Assembly (NCBI RefSeq): GCF_029027585.1
Contig: NZ_CP093397.1
Span: 62,001-126,000 of the forward strand
Direction: 5' to 3'
Source: Sulfurimonas sp.
GTDB taxonomy: Bacteria; Campylobacterota; Campylobacteria; Campylobacterales; Sulfurimonadaceae
DNA: 64,000 nucleotides
A program made the translations under genes and the position numbers. The notes beneath the pieces are model-generated. The model was not told the DNA's origin, made no database searches, and worked only from the letters and a program-made list of their open reading frames with translations. Shown here one piece after another: positions 53,804 to 64,000 of the stretch (its first letter is position 1; each line of letters opens with the position of its first letter).

Positions 53804-54436
53804 TTACTCAAAATACTGCAACAAGGCATCTCTATTTATCTTTTTTGTTTTTATATCTATAATATCATGGTCTTTAAAGAACTTCAAAATTCTTGAAAGT
53901 GTTTCTGGTGATACACTTAAAATTTCGGCAATTATTATGTTTTTAGTTGTAAAAAAACTATCTGAATGCTGATAAATATATTTTGCTACTCTCTCTTTTG
54001 AGTCTAATACAAGATTTGTAGATATGATAGCTTCAAGATTTTTAATCTTTTTTATTAAAGAAGTTTGAATCAAAAAAGAAAGTTCAGGATTTGAATATAT
54101 AATTTTTTTGAACTTTTTAAAGTCAATTTTCATGATTTCAACTTCAGTATATGCCTTGGCAGTCGCAGGATAAGGAATCTGTTCAAAATTTGCAACTTCA
54201 CCTATTAACTCATTTTCGTGAAAGTATTTTAGAACTATCTCTTTATGATTTGATGAAGTTTTATAAAGTTTTATGACGCCTTTTGCTAAAAGATAGAGAT
54301 ACTTTGTCTCATCTCCTTCATAAAAAACTATATTATCTTTAGGAATGGTAAACTTTGTTGTAAAAGATTCAATACTATCGATTGTTGCTTCATCTAAATC
54401 ACTAAACATATCAATATTTTTTAATTTTAATTTCAT
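53804..54436 (-). CDS. Crp/Fnr family transcriptional regulator
   Basis: A 210-residue regulator with an N-terminal cyclic-nucleotide-type sensor fold (residues 1-115) and a C-terminal winged helix (about 140-205; recognition region LSVSPETLSRILKFF). It has no N-terminal Cys cluster, so it is not an oxygen-sensing Fnr. A DNR/NssR-like response to nitric oxide or nitrogen oxides fits its NosL neighbours but is inference. It is 12 bases downstream of the NosL-like gene. Confidence 0.85.
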   Translation of the reverse strand: MKLKLKNIDMFSDLDEATIDSIESFTTKFTIPKDNIVFYEGDETKYLYLLAKGVIKLYKTSSNHKEIVLKYFHENELIGEVANFEQIPYPATAKAYTEVEIMKIDFKKFKKIIYSNPELSFLIQTSLIKKIKNLEAIISTNLVLDSKERVAKYIYQHSDSFFTTKNIIIAEILSVSPETLSRILKFFKDHDIIDIKTKKINRDALLQYFE

Positions 54437-54448
54437 TAAAAGATATCC

Positions 54449-54889
54449 TTATTCACTAAGTATTTTGGAGATAACTTCATCATAACTTAAGATATCTTTT
54501 TCATCTGGTATAGTATCTTTTGTTTTATGTGCCCAAAAACCAAAACTCATAGGTGTAATGTTGTCTGTATCGTAAAAAGCACTTCTAGCATCTATAAACT
54601 TTTGTGTAGATGCATCTGTAATCCAAATAACGGCTTTATCTTTCCATGAGATTTGTTCTTCTTTAAACCAAAGTGCCACACAACCAATATCATCAAACAT
54701 ATATGACTTTCCAGTTTGTGGGTCTTTTACTTGAACGGCATGTTTTCTATCACTTACAACCATAACGCATCTACTACACATATCTCTGTCCCAATGAACA
54801 GTTGATAAATCTGTTTGTACCTTTTTTTCACAAGCTAAAAACATCATAGAAATCACTAAAAGTAGTAAAATATTTATATATTTTCTCAT
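54449..54889 (-). CDS. NosL-like lipoprotein
   Basis: A protein of about 146 residues with a lipobox FLAC and a NosL domain: MCSRCVMVVSDRKHAVQV with the metal-binding C-x-x-C-x-M motif, then YMFDDIGCVALWF. NosL proteins bind Cu(I) and deliver copper to nitrous oxide reductase. The start at 54889 shares a base with the upstream stop (TGATG). No nosZ gene is in the window, so the copper target is unknown. Confidence 0.85.
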   Translation of the reverse strand: MRKYINILLLLVISMMFLACEKKVQTDLSTVHWDRDMCSRCVMVVSDRKHAVQVKDPQTGKSYMFDDIGCVALWFKEEQISWKDKAVIWITDASTQKFIDARSAFYDTDNITPMSFGFWAHKTKDTIPDEKDILSYDEVISKILSE

Positions 54890-55848
54890 CACAGCCAAAC
54901 TCCATTTTTTATATAATACATCATTACAAATGAAGTAAGTAATATAACATAAAGAGTGTTAATTATGATAGATTTTTGATAACTTATCTTTCTTATACTT
55001 TCATTTACATCTAAAAAAGCAACTACAAAACCATAAAAAGTTCCTAAAAATAAAAGTATATAAATTGGGTAACCTATAAAATAATATTCACTCTGTAAAA
55101 AACAAAATGGACAATGATGAGAGGGAAGTTCATAAATATATGTTCCAAAGAACACAATCAAAGAAACTAAAGAAATCAGTACAAAGAAGAGGTTACTTAG
55201 TGCAAACAGATACTTGTTTTTTAAAAAATAAAATACAAGTAACAGTAAAAAATTTGCATAAAAAAGAGTTAAAAGTGTAGTCGTGTTAAGAGTAAAAATA
55301 GAAGAAATCGCAGATGCTGATGTACTTGAGTAAAGCGTGCCACAACAACTAACCATTTTATCTATTTCAATAGAACTAAACATAACTCCTTCTAAAATCA
55401 ACTCAGCCATAAAAAGAAAAAAAGCAACTAAGTAAAGAGCGAATTTTTGTTTTACAAAGGGTTGATTTTCATGCTTTATATCTTCATTGTGTAAAACTAT
55501 CCAATAAGCAAATATATATAGATTTATGATTTTTAAGATAAAAAGAGGTGTTCCATAGACAGTAGCATCTACGACTCCCGCCCCACACATTGCACCTGTC
55601 AAGACATTAGATATTTTATCTAGTGTAAAGACAAAAAACAGAAATAATGGTACTTTTATGATAAAAATAAATTTTATAATAGTTGAAGCAAGGTAACTTT
55701 GTTTTTCTAGTTTGTACTGCAACTGACTTACAGAATTTCTATCCCATTTTCTATAAATATTTATACTTAAAATAAAAACAATAATTCCAAAAAATGCAAA
55801 AAGTGCATTAAGAATAAAAATAGTTAAAACTTCTGGTGTGAGTATCAA
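54889..55848 (-). CDS. Polytopic membrane protein with paired cysteine motifs
   Basis: A 319-residue protein with about eight membrane helices. Two cysteine motifs stand at membrane-edge loops, MVSCCGTLYSS and HHCPFCFLQSEYY, the second being a CXXC next to two His; another Cys is in GAMCGAGV. These could bind copper or act as a VKOR-like thiol exchange site. I do not recognise the family. It overlaps the ABC ATPase gene by four bases and touches the NosL-like gene, so it should act with both. Confidence 0.75.
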   Translation of the reverse strand: MILTPEVLTIFILNALFAFFGIIVFILSINIYRKWDRNSVSQLQYKLEKQSYLASTIIKFIFIIKVPLFLFFVFTLDKISNVLTGAMCGAGVVDATVYGTPLFILKIINLYIFAYWIVLHNEDIKHENQPFVKQKFALYLVAFFLFMAELILEGVMFSSIEIDKMVSCCGTLYSSTSASAISSIFTLNTTTLLTLFYANFLLLLVFYFLKNKYLFALSNLFFVLISLVSLIVFFGTYIYELPSHHCPFCFLQSEYYFIGYPIYILLFLGTFYGFVVAFLDVNESIRKISYQKSIIINTLYVILLTSFVMMYYIKNGVWL

Positions 55849-56513
55849 ACTAAAGAGCCATTATGCATCTGTATCTCTTTATCAACAAAATCAAGGTTGA
55901 AAAAAAGTGGGTCATGAGTTGCTACAACTATGGTCTTTCCAAGAGCTTTTAACTCACGAAGCATCTCTATAAAATGAAGTGAAAGTTTTTCATCAAGATT
56001 TGCTGTTGGCTCATCTGCTAAGATAATTTTAGGCTCATTTACATTTGCTCTTGCAATTGCTACTCGTTGTTGCTCTCCACCAGATAGATTTTTAACAATC
56101 GCATCTTTTTTATGCTCTATATGAAACATTTTCATAACTCTTTGCAACTTTGCATCTACTACTTTTGCATCTGGATTTAAAGGAACTAAAGGAAGTAAAA
56201 TATTTTCTTTTACACTAAGACTTGGGATAAGGTTGTATTTTTGAAAGATAAAACCTATGTTATCCCGTCTATACTCAGATGCAAAGCTATCAGGCAGTTT
56301 TGAGATTTGTTTAGCATCTACTATAACTTCCCCACTTGTTGGTTTAGATAAGGCAGCAATGAGCGATAAAACACTACTCTTACCACTACCACTAGCCCCC
56401 TTCAAAACAATCAACTCACCCTCATTAATTTTAAGGTTTATATCTTTAAGTGCTACAACAATATTGTTTTTATTTATCTCGTATGTTTTTGTTACATTTT
56501 TTAGTTCTATCAT
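55845..56513 (-). CDS. ABC transporter ATP-binding protein (LolD/MacB type)
   Basis: A 222-residue ATPase: Walker A GASGSGKSS (about 39-47), signature LSGGEQQRV and Walker B IILADEPTANLD. It belongs to the LolD/MacB/FtsE group, which pairs with FtsX-fold permeases. The only such permease nearby is encoded at 61001-62182, on the same strand but 4.5 kb upstream, on the other side of the WD40-caspase and AAA genes. Its ATG is two bases after the caspase gene stop. Confidence 0.9.
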   Translation of the reverse strand: MIELKNVTKTYEINKNNIVVALKDINLKINEGELIVLKGASGSGKSSVLSLIAALSKPTSGEVIVDAKQISKLPDSFASEYRRDNIGFIFQKYNLIPSLSVKENILLPLVPLNPDAKVVDAKLQRVMKMFHIEHKKDAIVKNLSGGEQQRVAIARANVNEPKIILADEPTANLDEKLSLHFIEMLRELKALGKTIVVATHDPLFFNLDFVDKEIQMHNGSLV

Positions 56514-56515
56514 AT

Positions 56516-59500
56516 TTACTTTACCTTTACCAAAGGAAATCCTTGTCCCAACGGAGATATAAACGGGTACTGTGCACGCTTAAACTCACGCTCTGCAATC
56601 TCTGGAACCATGTCTTCTACGAAGTTTGCGATCTCTAATGTTTTTATATATCCATCTCTATCACTATCTGCTTTACCATTTAGTCCATCTGTTAATACAT
56701 AAGTAAGAAGACCATGACCTTTATAACCTTCTAGTGCTTCTTGGCTTGATGAAGATGCAGAAATGATAGTAGAACCTACTGCTCTACTTAAAACCTTCAT
56801 AGCAGTTGTTTCAGTTAGTCCTCTTGTAAGTAATGCAACTTCTATAGCTTGACCTAATGCTCCTGAATTACAAGTATCTAGTATGATAAATTTTTTAGTT
56901 GTTGGAATATTTGCTATCATATCTCTAAGTGCATTTTGGCCTATAGCTTCTCTTTTTATTCCTCTACTTGATAATGCTCCAACATTTGAAGTAATCATAT
57001 GATACTTAGCATCTTCTATCATCCCATGACTTGCTACAAAAAATATAAACAAATCATTTGAAGATATATTTTCTAAATTTTTTAAAGTTTTAGTGATGTG
57101 TTCTTTTGAAGTTTGCTCTTTTGATATTAGTAATTTTATGTTTACATCACCATATAACCCTTTAGTTCTTTTCTTTATAGTTTTTGCGAAAAGCTTTGCA
57201 TCTGCTACTGCGTATTTTAAAGCTATTGTTGGATTCTTATATTCATTTATTCCAACTATTACTGCATAGATGTTTGGTTTAACTATTGGGTTATAAGTTG
57301 ATGTTACAGCTAAAGTGTCTTCTCTAGATGCCATAGTGTTAGCTTCATTGTAAACTATAGCTTTTAATGTGTGTTTTCCTTTTGGAAGTTTGATGGTGTA
57401 TGTTTTAAGAACTATATTTTTATTCTGTTTCTTTTTAAGTCCTCTATCTCCATCTGTCTTAATAAGAACTCCATCAAGATAAAGTCTTATTTGTCCTATA
57501 CCACCTGAACTTGGAGTAATGCGAAGAGTTACTTTTAACTCTTCTTTTTTTATAGATGTTTTAGTATCTATTATAGCTACTTGTGGGGCTGGCTTTACAT
57601 CTGATAGTTTTAGAGTTGGTATAACTATTATTTTTTTAACTTTTTTTATTTTATGGACTTTCTTCTTAACTATTTTTAGTTCTGTATTAACAATTTTATC
57701 TTGTCCTGCTAAAAAGTTTGACGGTTTTACATCAGACAAAGATAATTTCATAATATCAGGACGATAAAAGGTTTCAAAGTATTGATCTATACTTGATACA
57801 TCCATTGGAGTTGTTAAAACATTAAGATATTTTGGAGCTTTTGCTGACGAATTAAAATACCCCTCGGATGTAATAGATAACCATTCATTATCATCAAAAG
57901 CTACAATATCTAAAAGATTTTTATTATTTTTATTGTCCCAAAGGTTAATACTATATCTACCAACTTTATAACTATAATCTCCATCTATTGATAATAATTC
58001 TTTGCCATTATTTATTAATTTCTTATTCTCATTTTGCGTTATTTTTATAAATTTAGTTGATGTTTCTATATCTAATTTATAATAATCCTTTTTTAAATAA
58101 TTTTGATATTCTGATATAGAAATAAGCAGTGATTTATTATCTTTAGAAAAAGTAAATACATTAAAATCTATATAGTTATTATACTTTATACTTTTAACTT
58201 CCTTATTTGATTTTAAATCAAACAATATTATATTTTCATTCTTATGATACGCTATATATCTACCATCTGAACTATAAATAAATTCTTCAAGTTTTAAACT
58301 ATCAGGTATTTTCATTATTTTGTTTTTCACTGTTTTAAGACTAAATGTTTTATCATCTAAAAACAAATCCATAATAACTATTGATTTGTCATCTATATCA
58401 AAACTTGATAATGTTTTTTTACTTTTAAAATCTAAAAATAGTAATTTCTTTTTTGTCTTTAAAACTATATATTTTTTATTATTAGTTATCCGAAAATCTA
58501 TTATTTTTTTCTTTACTATTTACAGTAAAAATATCCCTCCTTGTTCCTGAATTAATTTCATAAGTACTTATTATATTTTTTTCATACAAAACTGCAAAGT
58601 TTTTTTTATCTGGACAAGCAATAATTTTTTTTGGAGAAATAAAATGCTTTCTAAAATCTTTGATATTTTTCCAAGATTTCATATCCCAAAGTTTAATCCC
58701 TTGTCTATCAGCTGAAGCTAAATATTTTCCAGTAGGACTAAAGGCTGAATAAAATGTCCAAAATTTATGCCCTTGCAATGTTTTATATAGAGTCATATCG
58801 TCCATCTTCCATATTTTAACAGTTTTATCAATACTGTTAGAAGCTAAATATTTACCATCAGGACTATAGCTAACACTATAAACCCAATCTTTATGTCCAT
58901 GAAGAGTTTTTAACTCTTTTTTATCATCTATATTCCATATTTTTATTACATGTTCTTTGATGTCTTCATAAGAACCTGAAGAAGAAGCTATATTTTGTCC
59001 ATCTGGACTAAAAGCAACAGAATATACCCCATCTTTATGTCCGCTAAATACATATACCTCTTCAGCACTCTTTGCATCCCAAAGTCTAACCATTTGATCT
59101 CTACCACCAGATACAATCAACTTACTATCAGGACTAAATGCGACAGAGTAAGCATAACCTCCATCATGCCCTTTAAAAGTTTTTATAGACTTGTCTTTAT
59201 TTATATCCCAAAGCTTTAGCGTTCCATCATAACTTGCCGTTACAAATCTATTGCTATTGGTATCTATTGCCAATGATGACACCCCCAGAGTATGACCTTT
59301 AAAAGTTTTCACATGCTCTCCTGTTACTAAATTCCATAACATAATTGTCTTATCCATGCTTGCCGACAATACAAATTTACCGTCATTTGTTAGTGCCACT
59401 GAGTGAACTTCACCTGTATGACCACTAAAGGTTCTAATCTCTTTTCCATTATTTATTTGCCATAGTTTAACAGTTTTATCACCTGAACTTGAAAGTAAAT

Positions 59501-59687
59501 GTTTACCATCTTTTGTAAAAACAAGTTTGCTCACTCCTCGATCATGACCGTACTCAACAAAAGGTTTAGTCATCTTAAAGTTTTTATCTGTATATATAAT
59601 ATTTTCAGGTTTTGCAACTTTAATTTTACTACTTGATGAACCACAACCAACTAACAAAAATACAATTAAAACTAAATGTCTATACAT
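56516..59687 (-). CDS. WD40-repeat caspase-like (C14) lipoprotein, frameshifted
   Basis: Two frames are one gene. The first half starts at ATG 59687 (GGGAG ribosome site) with a lipobox (FLLVGCG) and seven clear WD40 repeats (for example SGHTGEVHSVALTNDGKF). Its frame ends at 58482. The other frame is open from there as IIDFRITNNKKYIVLKTKKK into a second, degenerate propeller. Removing one A from the 7-base run at 58504-58510 joins them into about 1056 residues. Then follow a family-typical linker (ITSEGYFNSSAKAPKYLNV), an Ig-like domain and a caspase domain with catalytic His (FFVASHG) and Cys (ILDTCNSG). It would be a lipid-anchored, probably periplasmic protease-like sensor. Its start overlaps the AAA ATPase gene and its stop is two bases before the ABC ATPase gene. 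Confidence 0.85.
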
Positions 59688-60954
59688 TTTTATCTCCCTT
59701 AAGAATAAACTCATCCAAACTAATTATCTCTACATCATCAACACTAGCATTTTTACTATATGTTATCAATCTACAAATATCACCATCTTTTTTAAACTGC
59801 TTAAAACTTCTAAATTCTCTCTTTTTAGTGCTTTCCTCTTCTATATCAAAAGCTACTTGGTACAGTATATTATTTGAGTAAAAATCAACCTCATACTTAT
59901 CTTTTAAGTATGTCAGTTTTTCATCATTTTTATATAAAATATTAAAAACTAGATTTTCCAAAGCTATGCCTTTATTTTTAGTTCTGTTTATTCCTAAATT
60001 TAAAAAACCATTGTCACTGATGTAAAGTTTTTTTACTGACTTTATTTGCTGTGTAAATTTTGAATGAAAAGCAGGTATGGTATTTACTAAAAAATTATCT
60101 TCAAAGTAAGTTATATATTCTTTTATCATCTTTGCATCTATACTTATCTTTTTTGCCAAACTTGAGTAGTTAAGTTCTGTTGTGGCATTTGAAATCACAT
60201 AGTAAAAAAGGTCTTTTATAGCTTGGCTATTTTTTATCTTGTATCTTGGAACAATATCTTTAAGTATTATATCTTCTGCAATATTTTTCAACTGCTCTTT
60301 TTTTATCATTTCATTTTCGTTTGAAATAACAGAATAATATCCACCCCATTTAAGATATTCATCTTTTGCTCTACTTATTTCTATCTTATTTGCTGTTCTT
60401 TGTAGAACACTTGTGTAAGATATATTTTTAAACTGCAAAAACTCTTGGAAACTAAAGCTATATATTTGAAGTTTTAAAACTCTACCTGTTAGTACAGTTG
60501 CATAATTTGATGTAAGTAGTGATGAATTTGAGCCTGTAATAATAAACTTTATATTACTATTTTCATACTTTGATTTTACAAATACTTCCCAGTTTTCAAA
60601 TATTTGAACTTCATCTATAAAAAAGTATATTTTTTCATCTTTATTAGGATTGGCAATTTTCATGTATTCATCAAAAATAGTATTTAAATAACTAGCATCA
60701 TTTTTATAAGGTATAAATTCTGGTTTTTCAAGATTTATAAAAAATATATTTTTTGCTTCAACATTCTTCAAAAGTTCTTTTATAAGTAATTTGGCAATAG
60801 TACTCTTACCAACTCTTCTGGCTCCAATAAGGGCTAAGACCTCTTTTGTATCAATATATGCAAGAGCTTTTTCCAAAACATCTCTACTTATAAAATGATT
60901 ATAAGCCTCACTATTTATCCAATGATTATTATCTTCCAAAAGAATTGATTTCAT
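59680..60954 (-). CDS. AAA-14/DUF4143 ATPase
   Basis: A 424-residue ATP-binding protein: Walker A GARRVGKST (about 43-51), Walker B IYFFIDEVQIFENW and sensor FIITGSNSSLL, then a DUF4143 C-terminal domain that ends in a PD-(D/E)xK-like strand pair (YEVDFYSNNILYQVAF). The function of the family is unknown; members are often mobile or solitary. The stop overlaps the start of the WD40-caspase gene, so the two are coupled. A promoter and palindrome lie directly upstream. Confidence 0.85.
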   Translation of the reverse strand: MKSILLEDNNHWINSEAYNHFISRDVLEKALAYIDTKEVLALIGARRVGKSTIAKLLIKELLKNVEAKNIFFINLEKPEFIPYKNDASYLNTIFDEYMKIANPNKDEKIYFFIDEVQIFENWEVFVKSKYENSNIKFIITGSNSSLLTSNYATVLTGRVLKLQIYSFSFQEFLQFKNISYTSVLQRTANKIEISRAKDEYLKWGGYYSVISNENEMIKKEQLKNIAEDIILKDIVPRYKIKNSQAIKDLFYYVISNATTELNYSSLAKKISIDAKMIKEYITYFEDNFLVNTIPAFHSKFTQQIKSVKKLYISDNGFLNLGINRTKNKGIALENLVFNILYKNDEKLTYLKDKYEVDFYSNNILYQVAFDIEEESTKKREFRSFKQFKKDGDICRLITYSKNASVDDVEIISLDEFILKGDKNV

Positions 60955-60971
60955 TTTTTATATACCTTTAA

Positions 60972-60992
60972 AGGAATGTATTCCTGATTATA
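60972..60992 (-). promoter_or_regulatory. Candidate promoter with palindromic operator upstream of the AAA-caspase pair
   Basis: On the minus strand a TATAAT (60987-60992) is followed at once by a perfect palindrome AGGAAT-AC-ATTCCT (60972-60985) that would cover the transcription start. A weak -35 only. This suggests that the AAA and caspase genes have their own regulated promoter inside the larger operon. Confidence 0.5.
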
Positions 60993-61000
60993 ACATAAAA

Positions 61001-62182
61001 TTATCTAACAACCTCATCAGCATCTAAAGTCGCTATCTTCCATGATGGGATGATAGTCGCTGATATATAGATAGGTACACTTAGAAAAAAGACTAAAAAA
61101 AGTGTTTGAGTATCAAATATAAAAGGAAGTTCAAAAGATGTTTTTAGTTGTGAGTAACCTGTAAATATATTTTGCAAAAGTGGTGCTTGTAAAATATACA
61201 CAAAAAGAAATGCCAAAATAACACCAAAAAGATAAGCGATAAAAGAGATGATAAAACCTTCATAAAACTTCTCTTTAAGAACATCATCCACCCTCCAACC
61301 TATGGCTTTAAGTATTCCTATTTCTCTTTTTTCTTCACTACTAAGTCCACTTGCCTTGTCATAGATGATTATAAAAAATGTAAATAGTGAGATGATGAAA
61401 AGTGCTAAAAATATCCCACTTTTGTAATCAAATATATTCTGATAACTAATCTTTAAATCATTTTTTGTTATCACTCTGGCATCTGGAAAAAGAAGCTTTA
61501 TCTTAGATGCAACAGTTACAACCTCATCAAGATTTGAAACCTTTACAACTATGTCCGTAGCCTTTGACTCATCTATGTCAAAAATCTCTCTCGCACTTGC
61601 CTTTGTCATAACTATCATATCATTTGATTCTAGTTGAGTATCTCCATCAAACACACCTTTTAAATATATTTTTTTTAGTTCTCCATTTGGTTTTATGAAG
61701 TTAAAATACTCTTTGTAGTAGTTTTTTAACATCGTTTTTTTTACTCCACTTCCAACCAACATAGATGCATTATCGTTAAAGTCAAGTTTTGCATTATCAA
61801 CTATAATAGAGAGTGACTTTTTATATTGCTCTTCAAACTCATCAATTCCAACAACACTAAAGTTTACTCCAGCATTCTCAAAATAGTAGTATCCCCAAAC
61901 ACGAGCAGTGGCATCTACAACTCCTGTGATTTCTAAGATAGCATCTGAACTACTCACATCTATGTCATAGTGTCTTCCTGCTTTTATCTTTTGAACGATT
62001 ATTTGAGGAAGAGCATCTACGGTTGAGTTTAACTCTGATTTGATGGAGTTAGTTATAAAAAAAACGCTTGTTAAAAGAAAAATCAAAAGAGTCAACACTG
62101 TTGTAATAAAAAAGCTTTTATACTTTTGTCTTAGTATGGAGTTTATGGCGTACTCTATAAGGTAAAAATTTATTTTATTCAT
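61001..62182 (-). CDS. ABC transporter permease, FtsX/MacB fold
   Basis: A 393-residue protein with an N-terminal helix (about 18-40), a large extracytoplasmic domain (about 45-255) and three C-terminal helices (about 265-385). The EKREIGILKAIGWRVDDVL segment after the second helix is the ATPase-coupling motif of this fold. Partner ATPase probably encoded at 55845-56513. Family members move lipoproteins or act as mechanotransmitters rather than importing solutes. It overlaps the small upstream gene by 8 bases. Confidence 0.88.
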   Translation of the reverse strand: MNKINFYLIEYAINSILRQKYKSFFITTVLTLLIFLLTSVFFITNSIKSELNSTVDALPQIIVQKIKAGRHYDIDVSSSDAILEITGVVDATARVWGYYYFENAGVNFSVVGIDEFEEQYKKSLSIIVDNAKLDFNDNASMLVGSGVKKTMLKNYYKEYFNFIKPNGELKKIYLKGVFDGDTQLESNDMIVMTKASAREIFDIDESKATDIVVKVSNLDEVVTVASKIKLLFPDARVITKNDLKISYQNIFDYKSGIFLALFIISLFTFFIIIYDKASGLSSEEKREIGILKAIGWRVDDVLKEKFYEGFIISFIAYLFGVILAFLFVYILQAPLLQNIFTGYSQLKTSFELPFIFDTQTLFLVFFLSVPIYISATIIPSWKIATLDADEVVR

Positions 62183-62495
62183 TATCTAGCCTATTGATTA
62201 TGTGCGAGTGAGAGTAGGTGAAAGTTGAAGGGAAGTACTCTCTTAAACTTCCATCATCTTTGTAGATGCTAAACACATTACTCAGACTTCTATGTCTAAT
62301 ATAAGTTGCTTCTGTTGAGATAGCTAAATCTCCAAGACCAACAAGTGCTACAAAATTTTTTTTCTTAACTAGCATCTCTTTAGAGTCAGATTTATACATA
62401 CTTAGATAATAAGCTTCAAGTACAAACACAAGCATAATAATACCTACAAATAAAATCAGTTTAGGTGTTTTTGGAGTGTATCTATTTTCATTCAT
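62175..62495 (-). CDS. Small membrane-anchored protein of the NosL/ABC operon
   Basis: A 106-residue protein with one hydrophobic segment (about 12-32) and an extracytoplasmic domain of 70 residues with no Cys. I do not recognise the family. The start at 62495 (ATG after an in-frame TTG) overlaps the NosL-domain gene by 8 bases, and the stop overlaps the permease start, so it is tightly bound to the operon and probably a transporter accessory subunit. Confidence 0.65.
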   Translation of the reverse strand: MNENRYTPKTPKLILFVGIIMLVFVLEAYYLSMYKSDSKEMLVKKKNFVALVGLGDLAISTEATYIRHRSLSNVFSIYKDDGSLREYFPSTFTYSHSHIINRLDNE

Positions 62496-63165
62496 CAAGT
62501 TTATTAACTTCTTCTTTTTTTATATCTTCAAACTTCATAACTTTTATACCCTTATGATCCATACTAAATGTCTTAGCCTCATCGTATTTCTCAAATGAGA
62601 TAAGTTCATCACCCATAGGTCCATATACATCACTGCCTATTACGAAGTAAGCATCTCTAGCATCTAATACTTTTAGAGAGTAATAATCTCTCACTAAAAT
62701 TTTAGATATACCTTTTTGATGTTTATAATAATACTTCATCATATCTTTAACTCCATCAAAAGAGAACCGTTTATCATCATAAAAAATTTGTGTAATCCAC
62801 TTTGGGTACTTATACACATACATTCCACAGATAGGGCACTTTTCATCTTTGGTTACTTTTATCTCTAAAATTACTTCGCTGTTATCTTCAAGTCGTTTTA
62901 CTTCAAAAAGGTATAGGCAAAGGGCATTGAAGTATTTTGGATTTAGCGGTTTACAAAGTTTGTTTTCTTTTATATCTTTACTCAAAGCATCTATACTTTT
63001 GTACTGACTTAAGTCTATCTCTAAATCACACTTTTTTAAAAATATTTTTTTACCCATAGGATAAATCTTCTTCTCTTTTTGTGCTAAAGAGATAGATGCA
63101 TCTGCAAATAATGTTGTTATAAAAAACAGTGAGATAAGAAAGAAAAGGTTTAGGTAAGTTTTCAT
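62488..63165 (-). CDS. Exported protein with C-terminal NosL domain
   Basis: A 225-residue protein with a signal peptide (1-21), an N-terminal region of about 85 residues with three Cys (KKCDL, NKLCKPL, ALCLYL), and a NosL domain with the C-x-x-C-G-M copper site (KCPICGMYVYKYPKW) and RFSFDGVKDMMKYY. Like the second NosL protein at 54449 it should bind copper, but it has no lipobox. Both flank the ABC transporter genes. Confidence 0.85.
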   Translation of the reverse strand: MKTYLNLFFLISLFFITTLFADASISLAQKEKKIYPMGKKIFLKKCDLEIDLSQYKSIDALSKDIKENKLCKPLNPKYFNALCLYLFEVKRLEDNSEVILEIKVTKDEKCPICGMYVYKYPKWITQIFYDDKRFSFDGVKDMMKYYYKHQKGISKILVRDYYSLKVLDARDAYFVIGSDVYGPMGDELISFEKYDEAKTFSMDHKGIKVMKFEDIKKEEVNKLDE

Positions 63166-63200
63166 AATAAAAATATACCTTAAGAAGTATTACAAAATCG

Positions 63201-63680
63201 TTAAGTTGTTCTAAGTAACATCAATCTTCGTACAAATAAGACAATTAATCCAACAGCTAAAATTTTAAAGTCTAACTCACTTGCTGTGTGAATATTTTCA
63301 AAGGTTGTGCTTTGGGTTGCTTCTACGCCCATAGCCTGCATCGCTAAAATCTTAGGTGCATAAACATTACTAAACATCAAAGAAGAAAAGACAACTGTAA
63401 CGCTACTAGCTAAAACTATAGAGTCTCGTTTTGATGTCTTATACATATATGTTTCATACAGCATAACAGCACCAGCAAGAAAGTAAACCCAGTAACTAAA
63501 CCTATGAAAGATTTCACCCATCAAAATACCAGCATTATAGTGATCTAGAGTTATATCTACTAAGTGTTTGTTTGGGTTAAAAATAACAGGAGCAACTACT
63601 GCACCTAGAACTATTACTGCTCCAAATGAAGCTGCTAAAATGATTAGATAACTAAAGTCTATATAAATTCTTTTACTAAT
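63201..63680 (-). CDS. DUF4149-like membrane protein with a non-ATG start
   Basis: The in-frame coding sequence extends upstream of the TTG at 63524 through RIYIDFSYLIILAASFGAV and VIVLGAVVAPVIFN, a membrane helix typical of DUF4149/TMEM205-like proteins. It is open back to a stop at 63687. The only start in the right place is ATT at 63680, 7 bases after AAGG. Total about 159 residues and four helices, with YAPKIL and HTASELDFKI as further family features. Role unknown. ATT starts are rare, and a base error (ATG expected) is possible. Confidence 0.65.
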   Translation of the reverse strand: MSKRIYIDFSYLIILAASFGAVIVLGAVVAPVIFNPNKHLVDITLDHYNAGILMGEIFHRFSYWVYFLAGAVMLYETYMYKTSKRDSIVLASSVTVVFSSLMFSNVYAPKILAMQAMGVEATQSTTFENIHTASELDFKILAVGLIVLFVRRLMLLRTT

Positions 63681-63689
63681 GGGTTTGCC

Positions 63690-64000
63690 TTATAGCTTAA
63701 GCGTAAAACCTCTATCAAAATTACTATAATCTTTGTAGAAGTCTAACTGCTCAAATGCTTGATTTGATAAATATGTTTGTATCTTACCTTTTTGCTCATA
63801 ACCCATCTCACATGTAAAAAAGTTAATCTTTCGCTTTAAGACTTCAACAAGGAGTTCTTTAATGATTTCATCTCCGACAACTCCTCCAAAAAGTGCATTT
63901 TGAGGTTCATAAGAAAGGTTTGACTCTAGTGGTGTTTTATCTGCAATATATGGAGGATTTGATACAAGATAATCTATATCTTCATCTATTGGCTCTAAAA
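63690..64000 (-). CDS. prmC: Peptide chain release factor glutamine methyltransferase, partial
   Basis: The last 102 codons of PrmC/HemK. The catalytic motif VSNPPYIAD is visible, followed by the conserved PLESNLSYEPQNALFGG segment. The enzyme methylates the GGQ glutamine of release factors. The N-terminus lies beyond the window end. Confidence 0.9.
   Translation of the reverse strand, partial: LEPIDEDIDYLVSNPPYIADKTPLESNLSYEPQNALFGGVVGDEIIKELLVEVLKRKINFFTCEMGYEQKGKIQTYLSNQAFEQLDFYKDYSNFDRGFTLKL

Follow-up and report, generated by a model that had tools for sequence, protein, structure and literature searches.

Introduction

Core defence hotspots such as cDHS1/2 of Pseudomonas aeruginosa combine fixed core flanks with differing defence cargo and, as reported for them, no single responsible mobile element; their islands span 1-224 kb between core flanks, and the published account presents such hotspots as larger regions bounded by core genes (PMC10250203). 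Prokaryotic caspase homologues have WD40 as their commonest partner domain (73 sequences, 10.9%) and are rare in Epsilonproteobacteria, at 0.01 per 1000 proteins (PMC3501461). Caspase conflict systems with diversified modules have been described as multi-gene (PMC7159879, PMC10907252). Here we describe the junction between an FtsX-type permease gene and a LolD/FtsE-type ABC ATPase gene in a NosL-associated ABC operon of a Sulfurimonas sp., which lies in a stretch of 64,000 nucleotides (nt), hereafter the window (positions 62001-126000 of contig C1 of our genome G000, a 2.6 Mb genome in a single contig). With a probability of roughly three in four, we propose that this FtsX-LolD junction is a small insertion hotspot that in the window holds two independently acquired accessory genes, namely one for a PDC-S01-type DUF4143 AAA+ ATPase, a candidate in anti-phage defence, and one for an exported WD40-caspase lipoprotein.

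The junction resembles cDHS1/2 in its fixed core flanks, in the differing cargo, part of it defence-type, and in the lack of a single responsible mobile element, but it differs in scale, as 1-3 open reading frames (ORFs) are inserted inside one operon, and in that the flanks are translationally coupled and the cargo ends on the right 0-7 nt before the start codon that follows. Whereas known defence hotspots are found between operons or within mobile elements, this site lies between translationally coupled transporter genes and takes one or two genes at a time. The inserted ATPase gene is like the PADLOC candidate PDC-S01 in being a single gene of patchy occurrence with a full-length profile match, and unlike it in that the predicted antiviral gene is placed within an ABC operon. 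The caspase shares with the WD40 caspase homologues described in prokaryotes a Peptidase C14 domain with a His/Cys dyad, WD40 repeats and an N-terminal membrane or signal segment, and differs from those homologues, as far as that account of them goes, in having WD40 first and caspase last, in paralogues with a near-constant protease end and background-level propeller identity, and in being split by a frameshift (PMC3501461). The EACC1-associated and VMAP conflict systems likewise join a caspase effector to variable modules, but with the caspase N-terminal, whereas the protein described here would be exported as a lipoprotein and is not part of a multi-gene system (PMC7159879). The EACC1 caspase model of NCBIfam (NF047832) scored 52.8 against a cut-off of 140 bits, and no EACC1-type or MoxR/vWA partner was present among the identified neighbouring genes. 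Among the papers listed by literature searches on DUF4143, on WD40 and caspase proteins, on Campylobacterota caspases and on operon-internal defence hotspots, no title or abstract opening described the FtsX-LolD site or the caspase pattern.

Results and Discussion

Occupancy of the FtsX-LolD junction in the genus

The features at the junction in the window are as follows.

61001-62182, minus strand: FtsX-type permease gene of the host operon, bounding the insertion site on the left (PF02687, 1.6e-13)
60955-61000, minus strand: 46-nt leader from the FtsX stop to the DUF4143 start, in which no terminator was found and promoter and terminator scans were at chance level
59680-60954, minus strand: DUF4143/AAA_14 ATPase gene, first inserted gene, PADLOC single-gene candidate PDC-S01 (PF13173, 1.8e-33; PF13635, 1.7e-18)
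58482-59687, minus strand: WD40 beta-propeller part, N-terminal piece of the second inserted gene (PF00400, 2.1e-75), with a lipoprotein signal peptide
58504-58510, minus strand: A7 run within the 38-nt frame overlap, probable site of a one-base shift
56516-58519, minus strand: caspase (Peptidase C14) part, C-terminal piece of the second inserted gene; longest ORF from the ATG at 58372
56519-57613, minus strand: constant C-terminal module of 365 amino acids (aa)
55845-56513, minus strand: LolD/FtsE-type ABC ATPase gene of the host operon, right flank (PF00005, 2.2e-36), which normally overlaps FtsX among relatives

Pfam matches confirmed that the LolD-type ATPase, caspase, DUF4143 ATPase and FtsX genes lie where an earlier note on this DNA had placed them, all on the minus strand, and the 2 bases that it gave between the caspase ORF and the ATPase gene are there (56516 versus the LolD end at 56513). 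The note had held that FtsX and LolD would normally be adjacent, that either a defence-like cassette had been inserted into a NosL/ABC operon or the caspase was a functional component of the envelope system, and that a cassette carried by all relatives would speak against insertion. FtsX homologues were identified in 98 of 135 same-genus genomes, five of which contributed a second, diverged FtsX locus, and the FtsX-LolD spacing was measured at 97 same-genus loci (82 + 15, the window locus included) at which both genes were on the same strand, within the fetched stretch and <8 kb apart; LolD or NosL matches of <35% identity were ignored in the 82-locus set. Outside these 97 were G025 (contig ending inside the cargo), G400 (contig ending 52 nt past FtsX, with an adjacent LolD start visible, so that the site is empty), G374 (without LolD and the membrane protein) and partial matches in G357, G022 and G014, which were not fetched.

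The ancestral FtsX-LolD pair was contiguous. The two genes were uninterrupted in 88 of the 97 loci, either overlapping (ATGA, gap -1) or 2 nt apart, and these included the sister G403, the closest relative (FtsX 93% identical; site empty, gap -1), and 87 further loci among the 96 of the genus other than the window's. The cassette of DUF4143 and caspase genes was at the junction in none of those 96. Normal adjacency of the pair and a defence-like insertion, as the earlier note had suggested, are thus both upheld; what it had missed were the frameshift described below and the repeated use of the junction as an insertion site. Chance is not an issue, because homologues exist and the gene order differs from that seen throughout the genus.

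A gap of >60 nt separated FtsX from LolD in nine of the 97 loci and one of >150 nt in eight (G000, 4490 nt; G352, 1795; G359, 1414; G381, 1105; G362, 1063; G043, 1034; G412, 214; G037, 167; the ninth, G292, has 81), and at a tenth occupied locus, in G025, an unrelated ORF at the junction runs to the contig end. By comparison, insertions of >150 nt were absent from all 274 instances of six other junctions of the operon: LolD-membrane protein (0/95), small protein-FtsX (0/61, with a single 67-nt gap), NosL-small protein (0/55), membrane protein-NosL (0/35), NosL-Crp (0/21) and Crp-PyrC (0/7), where the last three numbers are low because the downstream NosL, Crp or PyrC genes were often not found beside their partner. 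The difference was significant in a Fisher test both by locus (1.8e-5) and when just four independent events were counted (0.004). Outside the genus, FtsX-LolD gaps of 84 and 226 nt were seen in two of 12 loci, both of which were also gapped at the LolD-membrane protein junction.

In a FastTree tree of FtsX, LolD and the membrane protein from 90 loci, the G000 clade of nine members has six occupied and three empty sites (G403, G414 and G400), and EF-hand cargo sits in two further groups. Such a mixture of occupied and empty clade members indicates that gains, losses and replacements occurred, although independent events were few. Conserved core genes flank the site in both occupied and empty genomes, as at a core hotspot. 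At the G374 locus (L197), which is without LolD and the membrane protein, the second NosL gene of the operon directly follows FtsX.

Cargo of the junction

At the ten occupied same-genus loci the occupants are of at least four different kinds of gene, or are short remnants, and the cargo differs by genome. Besides the DUF4143 and WD40-caspase genes of the window, the junction holds PD-T4-7 (PADLOC, 4.7e-38) in G025, a RhuM protein as the main ORF in G352 (PF13310, 4.7e-105; PDC-S05, 6.5e-152), a RhuM protein 83% identical to it in G359, and a 327-345-aa protein that we named EF-hand-like by eye in G043, G362 and G381 (L058, L186 and L190); the two members of the latter that were searched, from G043 and G362, had no Pfam or PADLOC match. 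An apparent remnant of the EF-hand-like gene makes up the insert of G412 (L176). In E. coli, PD-T4-7 was reported to act as a toxin-antitoxin-like system of abortive defence (PMC9519451). The PD-T4-7 and RhuM/PDC-S05 occupants are without sequence relation to the genes of the window cassette and yet occupy the same junction. In a plain count made without a genome-wide background, PADLOC-listed families account for four of the seven gene-sized occupants, G359 being included through its 83% identity.

The large cargo ORFs are all on the operon strand and end close to the LolD start (0 nt in G352 and G359, 1 in G362, 2 in G000 and 7 in G381; no right-end distance was read in G043, where the LolD start is uncertain). 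The leader after the FtsX stop is similar among G025, G352 and G359. No integrase or transposase was recognised in the insert ORFs of G000, G352, G359, G043, G362 and G381, with those of G359 and G381 judged by eye and similarity and the insert of G025 cut by the contig end. The leader common to three of the loci, the emptiness of the site in close relatives and the lack of a recognised integrase in the insert ORFs lead us to suggest that homologous recombination through the conserved flanking genes brings in cargo and exchanges it. Cargo would survive only if LolD stayed transcribed and translated, and the operon would remain functional because cargo is presumably kept only when it is co-directional and ends beside the LolD start. 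FtsX and LolD beside NosL are a core gene pair whose junction can be mined for candidate defence genes.

Four points weigh against the explanation that we propose. The EF-hand-like gene and the remnants in G412, G037 and G292 are not known defence genes; PDC families are predictions and mostly unvalidated in the published description (PMC12988326); the loci with cargo group together on the tree, with perhaps only 4-6 independent events; and the frameshift in the caspase gene could be an assembly error. The first of these also speaks for neutral hitchhiking, a possible although unlikely account in which the junction tolerates any insert that keeps LolD translated, there is no particular defence theme and the defence names of the occupants reflect the abundance of such genes within the accessory pool. 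Such an account would gain from the fact that PDC-S01 is described as very widespread among prokaryotes (PMC12988326) and from the six close DUF4143 homologues at other places among relatives, but it does not sit well with the share of PADLOC-listed families among the gene-sized cargo, nor with the other operon junctions, which are tightly spaced too and are without insertions.

The DUF4143 ATPase gene and the composite nature of the insert

We return to the insertion hotspot that we prefer and to its contents in the window. The DUF4143 gene, which starts 46 nt past the FtsX stop, matched the PADLOC profile PDLC04787 (PDC-S01) over its full length (1.1e-95, residues 20-419), and its AAA_14 domain has a Walker A motif by eye; the DUF4143 domain we take to be PD-(D/E)XK nuclease-like. 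The ATPase may act within the cell against phage or foreign DNA, a putative anti-phage role that rests on the PADLOC prediction.

The earlier note had treated the DUF4143 and caspase genes as one coupled unit, which does not hold across relatives. Homologues of the DUF4143 gene, 63-73% identical, are at other chromosomal places in six relatives, and a caspase or WD40 match was found in none of 12 DUF4143 loci; conversely, none of 24 loci fetched around caspases had a match to DUF4143, FtsX or LolD. This lack of co-occurrence in 36 other loci indicates that the pair in the window is a composite of two independent genes. The G+C content is 26% in the DUF4143 gene, 32% in the WD40 part, 21% in the stretch before the constant module and 32% in that module, with 31% for the window.

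A one-base shift at a T6 run splits a second DUF4143 gene of G000 (L136, G000:C1:1640000-1650000, at ~5696). Its two halves have kept 66-76% identity to an intact homologue, and the break is hence either recent or a sequencing error.

A WD40-caspase gene probably split by a frameshift

What had been described as a single WD40-caspase ORF is in fact two, a WD40 ORF (58482-59714) and a caspase ORF (56516-58372), which are not in frame with each other. With the caspase frame open from 58519, the two frames share 38 nt (down to 58482). Full-length homologues are single ORFs of ~960-1230 aa with WD40 N-terminal and caspase C-terminal (963-1204 aa in five genomes and 1045-1159 aa in the four closest copies), and for this reason the two ORFs most likely belong to a single gene that a one-base shift has divided, probably at the A7 run. 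The likely start of the WD40 part is the ATG at 59687, with an RBS-like (ribosome-binding-site-like) GGAG just upstream, from which a lipoprotein signal peptide with the lipobox MYRHLVLIVFLLVGC (by eye; several homologues are alike) would be read. The overlap with the DUF4143 gene therefore amounts to 8 nt, ATGTATAG, and would reach 35 nt from the start of the longest ORF. The caspase domain was above the curated cut-off of its profile (PF00656, 8.7e-14), and the His/Cys dyad is intact, as H449 and C501 of ORF 56516-58372 are invariant in 10 sequences. Tandem repeats as the origin of the WD40 part were rejected, with just one short, weak array found.

We favour, short of proof, a real inactivation or a switchable tract as the explanation of the frameshift. 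Homopolymer runs are prone to indel errors in long-read assemblies, and an intact gene with an assembly error would account for a one-base shift in or near A7 as well as for the break of the second DUF4143 copy at T6. We nevertheless think an error rather unlikely, since the window ORFs of at least 150 aa that remain open contain 73 A/T7, 15 A/T8 and 2 A/T9 runs, which speaks against a high homopolymer error rate, and since the two broken genes both belong to the accessory genes, a class in which one expects real decay. An intact caspase would be exported, its propeller may sense something beyond the inner membrane, and proteolysis would be the response. With propeller and protease out of frame, the copy in the window is probably off, as a pseudogene or a switchable tract, unless slippage rescues it.

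A constant protease module and divergent propellers

Caspase matches were found in 14 of 135 same-genus genomes at 1e-8 and in 12 genomes of a 298-genome sample of the order at 1e-10; no relatives were found in viral contigs or in GTDB contigs, where the scans may omit near genomes. The complete genome G352 has four intact copies close to the window caspase (L210-L213), at unrelated places, and the stretches fetched around them had no FtsX or LolD match. Over the last 365 residues these copies share 81-94% identity among themselves and 84-88% with the window copy, whereas the 520-600 aligned N-terminal residues (WD40) are only 23-29% identical, with a nonsynonymous divergence (dN) of 0.8-0.95. 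WD40 propellers of unrelated origin are expected to be ~20-30% identical. Since the propellers are at about this background, their contrast with the protease end would reflect either propeller exchange or very fast divergence, between which these sequences do not discriminate. The contrast is much sharper than in a second caspase family, in which one copy each from G000 (L082), G352 (L214) and G327 (L140) was compared and N-terminal identities are 47-53% and C-terminal identities 73-79%. At such closeness the constant module was present only in G000 and G352 (two of 397 genomes in a sample of the phylum); the genus search gave no further genome, and the scans of viral and GTDB contigs gave none either. 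A comparison of the module with PDB sequences gave no match at 0.01, and a single-sequence structure model, with a predicted local distance difference test score (pLDDT) of 43.9, was too poor to search.

We speculate, as a doubtful proposal, that these caspases are a multi-copy exported family built like variable receptors, in which a constant protease module is joined to an exchangeable, strongly diversified WD40 propeller outside the inner membrane. The copies, which are placed at different sites (one of them an operon junction that anti-phage genes also occupy) and would be switchable by homopolymer frameshifts, would then form a periplasm-facing immune repertoire of sensor-proteases. If the pattern of constant protease and variable propeller does reflect sensing, it offers a testable case of paralogous periplasm-facing caspase sensors in bacteria.

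Several minor observations were made at caspase loci. A degraded caspase fragment lies near the L211 copy of G352. Similar exported proteins (ISGIGYAQT...; L211:9108-10505 and L140:2985-4415), which we take to be LPP20-like, are encoded immediately before caspase genes of both families, and the exported protein and caspase genes are possibly a conserved pair. Another group of lipoprotein caspases (L144:1232-6840) is downstream of a CHASE2-type gene (PF05226, 1.4e-10) and a gene for a small exported protein, and the order at L143:4965-11165 resembles it by eye. The interval between coaX and hisG, which is occupied by a caspase in G352, is ~27 kb in G403 (L247 and L248; G403:C1:1208500-1239500) and contains duplicated large genes, presumably Sel1-repeat-like genes and a partial hisG duplicate. 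We do not claim the coaX-hisG interval as a second operon-internal hotspot, as the spacer is variable and the genes are on both strands in other genomes.

The host operon

The minus-strand order at the locus is DUF4149 protein, NosL protein, small protein, FtsX, DUF4143 ATPase, WD40 ORF, caspase ORF, LolD-type ATPase, 319-aa membrane protein, NosL-like protein and Crp-like regulator, so that NosL genes flank the operon on either side. The remaining genes of the host operon are the following.

62488-63165, minus strand: NosL-domain protein, upstream in the operon (PF05573, 4.4e-34)
62175-62498, minus strand: small 107-aa protein, position conserved among relatives
54889-55848, minus strand: 319-aa membrane protein, no Pfam or NCBIfam match
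54449-54898, minus strand: NosL-like lipoprotein, downstream in the operon, named by resemblance with no Pfam match

A promoter or terminator belonging to the cassette itself was rejected, as 44 promoters were found against 44.4 expected and 2 terminators against 1.8, and a search of 54000-64000 with Rfam gave no match. A working link of the cassette to the NosL/ABC system is unlikely: a functional role of the caspase and ATPase in it, for example as a lipoprotein protease sorted or activated via the transporter, would fit their strand, the 2 nt to LolD and an exported lipoprotein beside a lipoprotein-export-like ABC pair, but is very improbable given that the cassette is missing from the junction in all other measured loci including the sister, that caspase homologues reside elsewhere, with no FtsX or LolD match in the 24 loci fetched around them, that the copy here is frameshifted, that unrelated cargo is equally tightly spaced, and that the ABC proteins scored below the curated cut-offs of the LolCDE exporter models (187.6 versus 307.75 for LolD and 47.4 versus 362.45 for LolCE). 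The 319-aa membrane protein carries the cysteine motifs CCG and HHCPFC, and its gene adjoins LolD in nearly all measured loci.

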